A model generated the notes under the pieces. The model saw nothing but the letters and a program-made list of their open reading frames with translations, was not told the origin of the DNA and made no database searches. The translations under genes and the position numbers were made by a program. Source: Salibacterium aidingense DSM 18341 (lineage in GTDB: Bacteria > Bacillota > Bacilli > Bacillales > Marinococcaceae). Taken from it: a stretch of DNA of 41,283 nt. Of the stretch, positions 10,177-10,976 are shown in pieces. Each line of letters begins with the position of its first letter. Within the stretch, counting starts at the first letter, position 1. Location: contig NZ_AUCI01000029.1 of the NCBI RefSeq assembly GCF_000429685.1, positions 1 to 41,283 of the forward strand. The letters run 5' to 3'.

Positions 10177-10206
10177 GAAAAGAAAGTCAATAAAGGGGGA
10201 GGAGCC

Positions 10207-10863
10207 ATGGAAGAGCGGTATCAGGCAGCTGAAACAACGAAACTGGAAACGGCGGTCTTCGGACTGGGCTGATTCTGGGGACCGGATGCCCAGTTCGGGC
10301 AGCTGTCAGGTGTTTATCGGACTCGTGTCGGCTATACCGGCGGCACTACCTCTGAACCAACATATCGGAATATGGGGGATCATACGGAATCGATTCAAAT
10401 TGTATTTGATCCGGAACAGATCAGCTATGAGGAATTGCTGCATAGGTTCTGGAACAGTCACAATCCCACGATAAAAAGCTTGTTCAGAGACCGCCAGTAT
10501 ATGTCTCTGTTGATATATCATGATGAAGTGCAGAGAGAGAAGGCGCTGGCTTCTAAGCAAAAACAAGAAGAAGCACTGGGAGTTTTGATAAAAACGGAAA
10601 TGACCAAAGATGCTGAGTTTTACCCGGCCGAACATTACCATCAGAAATATTTTCTGCGACGCTATAAAAAAGCGGTGGAAGCGCTCTCCAGGCTGTATCC
10701 AACGGAGGAGGGGTTCCGTGATGCTGCTGTGACGGCAAGGCTGAATGGGTTTGTGCGGGGACGTTCCTCCATGCAAGAACTGAAGCAGGAAATACAAACC
10801 TGGGGATGGAGTACGGAAACCGAAAATCAAACCATCGAGGTATTGGACTCAATCCGCTGGTAG
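10207..10863 (+). CDS. msrA: Peptide methionine sulfoxide reductase A with in-frame UGA at the catalytic codon (putative selenoprotein)
   Basis: MsrA reduces methionine-S-sulfoxide in proteins through an attack by the Cys of the GCFWG motif. Here the frame is open from ATG 10207 (preceded by GGGGGAGGAG) to TAG 10863 except for codon 22, TGA at 10270-10272, and the motif reads G-(UGA)-F-W-G. Downstream the family is intact: VYRTRVGYTGGTTSEPTYRN, GDHTESIQIVFDP, FWNSHNP and the late AEHYHQKY. The translated protein (218 aa counting codon 22) has no Cys anywhere, so there is no resolving Cys and no alternative nucleophile. This fits a one-Sec MsrA, as I recall for the clostridial enzyme from Alkaliphilus oremlandii. 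The alternative is a nonsense mutation that happened to hit the catalytic codon. An annotation from the downstream ATG at 10372 would miss the active site. Confidence 0.75.
10264..10303 (+). promoter_or_regulatory. Candidate bacterial SECIS stem-loop
   Basis: After the UGA at 10270-10272, UGCCC (10287-10291) and GGGCA (10297-10301) form a 5-bp stem around the loop AGUUC. The loop starts 19 nt after the UGA and has G at its second position, features reported for bacterial SECIS elements. An alternative stem, CUGGGC (10264-10269) with GCCCAG (10288-10293), enclosing UCUGG/CCGGA, would hold the UGA in an internal loop. The elements lie inside coding sequence, so either could be chance. Confidence 0.45.
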
Positions 10864-10945: not shown

Positions 10946-10976
10946 GGCCAGCTGCATTTGCAGCTGGCCATTTTTT
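10946..10976 (+). terminator. Terminator of msrA
   Basis: GGCCAGCTGC, ATTT, GCAGCTGGCC: a perfect 10-bp stem followed by a run of six T. A weaker GGGCGCA/TGCGCCC hairpin lies upstream at about 10873-10911. No gene occupies 10864-11144. Confidence 0.88.

Follow-up and report, generated by a model that had tools for sequence, protein, structure and literature searches.

The question raised by this locus is whether a TGA codon lying inside an otherwise complete msrA gene is translated as selenocysteine (Sec) or is a stop. We examined it in the window, meaning the whole 41,283-nucleotide stretch of DNA analyzed here, which is contig 28 of a 4.4-Mb assembly with a completeness of 100. The features on which the argument turns are listed below, where CoMsrA denotes the selenoprotein MsrA of Clostridium oremlandii.

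10195 to 10204, plus strand: purine-rich, ribosome-binding-like site GGGGGAGGAG, 5' of the msrA ATG, recognized from the sequence
10207 to 10863, plus strand: msrA, very probable selenoprotein methionine-S-sulfoxide reductase of 218 residues, with Sec at residue 22 and TAG as the stop
10270 to 10272, plus strand: UGA codon, very probably read as selenocysteine, the catalytic residue of GUFWG (conservation and tRNA-Sec co-occurrence)
10287 to 10301, plus strand: SECIS-like hairpin UGCCC-AGUUC-GGGCA within the msrA coding sequence (comparative pairing and covariation)
10663 to 10860, plus strand: predicted C-terminal helical domain, about residues 153 to 218 (AlphaFold prediction, Foldseek match to CoMsrA)
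10946 to 10969, plus strand: terminator-like stem, 3' of msrA (consensus scan only)

The frame from 10207 to 10863 comprises 219 codons, and its only in-frame stops are the TGA at codon 22 and the TAG at codon 219. An earlier note on this DNA had described a single in-frame TGA at the catalytic codon with the same frame continuing after it, a ribosome site before the ATG, and a protein with no other Cys; each of these descriptions was confirmed. The TGA coincides exactly with the catalytic codon of the G-U-F-W-G motif, and there are no Cys codons in the gene, leaving a single catalytic Sec as in proteins of the CoMsrA type. With the TGA read as a residue, the protein matched PF01625 with an E value of 6.5e-40 (137.3 bits against a cut-off of 23.7) and TIGR00401 with 120.8 bits (cut-off, 108.1). 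The standard ORF list gives for msrA only a 163-amino-acid ORF from the ATG at 10372, just the misreading that had been anticipated, and by itself this ORF scores 69.2 bits, below the TIGR00401 cut-off of 108.1. Since the standard list shows Sec-msrA as a truncated ORF, both a repair enzyme and a dependence on selenium can be missed. The purine-rich site before the ATG and the terminator-like stem downstream suggest that msrA is monocistronic, with a single-gene transcript; two terminator-like stems were counted, the same palindrome on both strands, against a shuffle mean of 1.1. A divergent ORF upstream of msrA was named Hsp20-like by eye. Elsewhere in the genome there are two further MsrA-family genes without a stop. 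A plasmid origin of msrA was considered and rejected, as a plasmid collection gave five haloarchaeal relatives at E ≤ 1e-20, all below 60% identity.

The closest solved structures are those of CoMsrA (4u66/4lwj; E value, 2.8e-53). The AlphaFold model of the window MsrA has a pLDDT of 92.4, and Foldseek aligned it to 4lwl and 4lwj over 204 columns with a TMq of 0.84 and 43 to 44% identity. Y53, E61, Q97, Y98, H145, and Y148 are the counterparts of CoMsrA active-site residues and, together with W24, are invariant in 25 aligned chosen loci, in which F23, corresponding to CoMsrA Phe17, is nearly invariant. The active site given for CoMsrA in the available part of its structural description comprises Tyr47, Glu55, Gln89, Tyr90, His137, Tyr140, and GUFWG (PMC4333827).

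The genome that contains the window has the complete machinery for Sec. The earlier note had proposed a search for selA, selB, selD, and tRNA-Sec, and all four were present above curated cut-offs: tRNA-Sec at C7:159367 (56.4 bits), selB (351.5 bits), selA (551.4 bits), and selD (400.1 bits). ARAGORN calls the tRNA SeC with anticodon TCA. Its acceptor stem has 7 pairs; the acceptor stem of tRNA-Sec usually has 8. The selD gene has its own in-frame TGA, in the N-terminal GUGCK motif, which we take to be a known Sec position of SelD. The sel genes and tRNA-Sec lie within C7:159367-169077, less than 10 kb, and between selB and selD (L017:9471-15297) this cluster also holds a glycosyltransferase, a LysR regulator, and a phosphonate-type ABC transporter. 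A LysR gene at the equivalent place in genome G002 matches the NCBI model "selenium metabolism-associated LysR" with 329 bits (cut-off, 250), and the substrate-binding protein of the window's genome resembles the NCBI putative selenate transporter model at 167 of 250 bits, below the cut-off. The genes between selB and selD might serve selenium uptake. Visual comparison shows the sel cluster arranged in much the same way in G002 (where additional genes are present), G025, G026, G027, and G028.

If the TGA encodes Sec, it should be kept in relatives that can decode it. In the family, msrA matches at E ≤ 1e-30 were found in 10 of 29 genomes, and the catalytic codon was TGA in all 10. Across 397 sampled genomes of the order there were 52 matches at E ≤ 1e-40, of which 44 have TGA and 8 a Cys codon at the catalytic position; the codon was checked in every one of the 52, the initial stop count having ignored the position of the stop. 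The TGA is clearly not confined to one isolate, a circumstance that the earlier note had said would count against a selenoprotein. Judged from the sequences, chance is excluded as its origin, because the codon is conserved in 10/10 family and 44/52 order matches. The alternation of codons that the note had suggested looking for was also found, with TGA, TGT, and TGC at 25, 24, and 15 of the first 64 loci, respectively (two duplicates counted in). The catalytic TGA is retained down to 37% identity and across several phyla; records with TGA include ones from Bacillota, Planctomycetota, Acidobacteriota, Pseudomonadota, and Actinomycetota, and every haloarchaeal form that turned up was a Cys form. 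Over the 120 bases around the site, the msrA of G020, a genome placed in the window's genus, does not differ from that of Salibacterium salarium (L026/L035), which suggests that this genus is Salibacterium (Bacillaceae).

The codon also tracks the presence of tRNA-Sec. In the order, tRNA-Sec was detected in 44 of 44 TGA genomes versus 0 of 8 Cys genomes (P = 1.3e-9), using a search with stricter filters in which weak matches may be lost. In the family, 14 of 29 genomes have both tRNA-Sec and selA and the remaining 15 have neither; Sec-msrA is found in 10 of the 14 versus 0 of the 15 (Fisher P = 5.0e-5). The rows are related, so that the P values here and below overstate independence. Four family genomes (G001, G003, G005, and G006) have the Sec pathway without Sec-msrA. 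When MsrA-family matches were collected more broadly, at E ≤ 1e-12 in the 29 family genomes, only 10 of 78 had the TGA. One relative, L143 of genome G331, has the conserved TGA and an in-frame TAA in msrA, in a genome that has tRNA-Sec; this msrA is a decaying copy and shows that copies can decay.

A bacterial SECIS element is a hairpin shortly downstream of the UGA, by rule at 16 to 37 nucleotides, whose apical loop carries a G near its start. The stem with an AGUUC loop 19 nucleotides past the UGA, reported in the earlier note, was located as described, with UGCCC at 10287 to 10291, the loop at 10292 to 10296, and GGGCA at 10297 to 10301. The hairpin begins 14 nucleotides past the UGA and follows the consensus UGCCC-RGUUY-GGGCA. 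At least 4 of the 5 pairs form in 59 of 59 TGA genes (all 5 in 49 of them) versus 2 of 47 Cys genes, in which the protein at that place is similar. These pooled counts combine two sets, of 40 and 19 TGA genes and of 44 and 3 Cys genes. Loci L035 and L036 duplicate L026 and L032 and were left out before the counts, and L149, whose protein is identical to that of L043, was left out of the later hairpin counts and the trees; L143, with its extra TAA, was left out of both trees only.

Covariation supports the hairpin. With 52 distinct TGA sequences, the bases pair in 96.2% of cells, and compensatory changes on both sides occur at 3 of the 5 pairs, in 12 cells. The covariation score was reached by none of 500 shuffles, and the number of pairs changed on both sides was matched by 16 of 500; when only the first 23 sequences were used, 51 of 500 matched it. 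When the 3' arm was slid, only 23 to 45% of cells paired; a slide of +3 gave 15 both-side-changed cells versus 12, but with 30.8% of cells paired. At Sec+9, 22 of the first 23 TGA genes write Gly as GGG, versus 5 of 36 Gly-bearing Cys genes, the latter number excluding three Cys rows (L086 to L088) without Gly at that position, and GGG makes up 36 of the 244 other Gly codons in those 23 TGA genes. In 22 later loci GGG alone was weak (14/17 TGA versus 2/5 Cys; P = 0.10), and pairing separated TGA from Cys genes (P = 1.1e-4). In the last TGA set, 5 of 19 genes are without GGG and their stems are still paired 5/5. In L166, L174, L175, L176, and L178 the third pair is no longer C-G but reversed, as G-C or G-U, with loss of GGG and retention of pairing; the stem was apparently preserved in these genes at the expense of an Ala-to-Gly change in the protein. 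G at loop position 2 is a poor discriminator, being present in 58 of 59 TGA genes but also in 34 of 47 Cys genes.

Folding energies and family models did not single the hairpin out. Single-sequence folding of 10270 to 10312 was no more stable than that of shuffles (z = -0.10), the segment from 10260 to 10320 is predicted to adopt another, more stable structure (-25.1 kcal/mol) that competes with the hairpin, and an Rfam scan at the msrA UGA site found no family at gathering score. The case for the hairpin comes from comparison between genes and not from folding energy; the loop distance of 19 nucleotides, the comparative pairing, and the covariation together mark it as a candidate SECIS element. 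Two Cys-type msrA genes, L047 from Paenibacillus shirakamiensis and L134, keep the hairpin, with 5/5 and 4/5 pairs, respectively, and these hairpins may be relics of a recent Sec-to-Cys change.

Could the UGA instead be read as Cys, or as Trp, by an altered tRNA? Cys does occupy the position in relatives without TGA, and our tRNA scan covered only loci matching the tRNA-Sec model. However, among the 35 ORFs of the window that we treated as genes, TGA is the stop of 9, and the 96 Cys codons in these ORFs are all TGC or TGT. The tRNA with a TCA anticodon is a tRNA-Sec by both Rfam and ARAGORN, the tRNA-Cys found in this genome has the anticodon GCA, and the hairpin goes with TGA genes in a setting where SelB, SelA, and SelD are present. 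Reassignment to Cys or Trp is therefore very improbable. It is hardly any more credible that Sec can be inserted while the main product is the fragment from 10372, or that the gene is mainly a selenium-sensing switch. Termination at UGA under selenium shortage is common to selenoprotein genes, and the ATG at 10372 does open a frame of 163 amino acids; against this, the fragment should be inactive, because it is without the catalytic motif and under the MsrA cut-off, and no operon partner is evident, with a terminator-like stem (a consensus match only) following msrA. That the TGA is a simple nonsense mutation in a decaying pseudogene, as the truncated ORF from 10372, the two stop-free msrA genes that might make a loss tolerable, and the extra TAA in G331 could suggest, is a reading we reject as next to impossible, since the frame is intact from TGA to TAG, the same codon is kept as TGA down to 37% identity in several phyla, the active-site residues and helical domain are retained, and tracking with tRNA-Sec is complete across the 52 order matches.

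The window msrA is thus almost certainly a real selenoprotein gene, encoding a Sec-containing MsrA of the CoMsrA type (1-Cys class). The earlier note had reached the same view, which tRNA-Sec, selA, selB, selD, codon conservation, and the hairpin in TGA genes all support. The gene itself, the pathway genes, the conservation, the co-occurrence, the hairpin signature, and the predicted fold are established here. For MsrA we infer the actual insertion of Sec, the binding of SelB, catalysis, and the identity of the reductant. SelA and SelD would produce Sec-tRNA-Sec, which SelB would deliver to the UGA at 10270, aided by the hairpin just downstream, such that the ribosome would insert Sec rather than stop. 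By analogy with characterized MsrA proteins, Sec22 would attack methionine-S-sulfoxide and methionine would leave. This MsrA has no resolving Cys, and so the oxidized Sec22 would presumably receive its electrons straight from a separate thiol protein. The C-terminal helical domain would hold the active site in shape.

What the Sec pathway serves was considered for the genome and for the order. Of four selenoprotein families tested in the window's genome, only MsrA and SelD carry TGA. Formate dehydrogenase was rejected as the reason for the pathway: none of the 59 matches found at E ≤ 1e-80 across the 29 family genomes has a TGA, and neither does any of the 4 matches to formate dehydrogenase alpha in the window's genome. 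For glycine reductase, GrdA was found in 0 of 4 genomes of the window's genus at E ≤ 1e-12. In the order, tRNA-Sec was above the cut-off in 178 of 397 sampled genomes, so that Sec decoding looks common there and the earlier note's description of it as rare in Bacillales does not hold; the order uses selenium far more than that note assumed. This MsrA went unmatched at E ≤ 1e-40 in 134 of the 178 genomes, where the pathway must therefore serve other selenoproteins. Sec use in Bacillales was already known, as the accessible parts of two papers attest: a 2006 survey records three selenoproteins from three families (PMC1794560), and Paenibacillus vortex has SelD and tRNA-Sec without a known selenoprotein (PMC5330540).

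Other genes linked to Sec occur in some relatives inside the window's family. Genomes G002 and G028 each have a second tRNA-Sec downstream of a glycine/betaine reductase cluster (L122, L125, L152, L153, L155, and L156). The G028 cluster includes a betaine-type selenoprotein B, component C, a thioredoxin, and a thioredoxin reductase; the G002 cluster was otherwise assigned by resemblance. GrdA with TGA is encoded by two genes in each of these genomes and by one in G026 (L154), all three being relatives inside the family. The glycine/betaine reductase pathway is known mainly from anaerobes. Two tRNA-Sec matches per genome were seen in G002, G027, G028, G077, and G098; G028 has two full-length selA matches, and the second selA of G002 looks broken.

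Sec/Cys exchange in MsrA tracks the Sec pathway. On the trees, Bacillota Cys forms are interspersed with Sec forms, and the outgroup is a Sec form. A careful tree of 46 Bacillota rows needs three changes, with 0% of 200 bootstrap trees needing only one, and a larger quick tree of 83 rows gave six changes, two of them forced by starred branches. A single Cys clade was not rejected when tested on the 46-row data (P = 0.174), and any fixed number of Sec-to-Cys changes in Bacillota was therefore dropped. The direction of change depends on rooting. We consider it possible, though somewhat doubtful, that the window's genus keeps the whole Sec pathway for MsrA and SelD, not for formate dehydrogenase, and that in lineages of the order that lose the pathway MsrA survives by repeated change of UGA to a Cys codon, with relic hairpins remaining. 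If true, a Sec-to-Cys change upon pathway loss would oppose the general trend of Cys-to-Sec with few Sec-to-Cys changes, as given in the part of the 2006 survey available (PMC1794560), and the Bacillota MsrA family would be a natural experiment on the worth of Sec in an enzyme without a resolving Cys. Matched Sec and Cys MsrA proteins in related hosts offer a direct test of the Sec advantage.

Sec-MsrA is a known family in the portions of two reviews drawn on here (PMC9312934, PMC13188914), and a partly available survey recorded it in marine metagenomes (PMC2398784). Among the matches listed, in a partial coverage of the literature, no title dealt with Sec-MsrA in Bacillales, and the parts seen of PMC5029168 and PMC12013277 hold nothing beyond a reference on MsrA in Bacillales. 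Canonical bacterial MsrA uses Cys with a resolving Cys, according to the accessible text of PMC4479559, which also adds a dimer route for the MsrA mechanism. The MsrA of the E. coli 1ff3 type shares the fold of the catalytic domain, and Foldseek aligned the 1ff3 chains with a TMq of 0.55 to 0.60 over 154 to 165 columns, versus 204 for CoMsrA. The Cys-type MsrA proteins from Paenibacillus, Planomicrobium, and Alkalibacterium have the same motif, an alignable sequence, and C-terminal parts of the same kind, whereas the haloarchaeal Cys-type proteins have a shorter C-terminal part. Most of the Cys-type relatives, like the window MsrA, are without a second Cys, but they differ from it in having TGT or TGC at the site and fewer than 4 of 5 hairpin pairs in 45 of 47 cases. 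Some TGA relatives carry one to three Cys residues. Bacilli relatives have a conserved (R/K)W tail, while those from Halobacteroidaceae and one Clostridia MAG are without it.

The closest likeness is to CoMsrA (4lwj, 4lwl, and 4u66), with which the window MsrA shares the same catalytic Sec, no other Cys, GUFWG, the active-site residues, and the C-terminal helical domain. The host of CoMsrA is an anaerobic Clostridium, whereas that of the window MsrA is presumably a salt-loving member of the Bacillaceae. In the part of PMC4333827 available, CoMsrA is described as having Sec and no Cys, as 20-fold more active than its Cys version, as recycled by glutaredoxin and not thioredoxin, and as almost losing activity without the helical domain. 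A Sec-MsrA of the CoMsrA type is already known and structurally solved, and the window gene adds a member.
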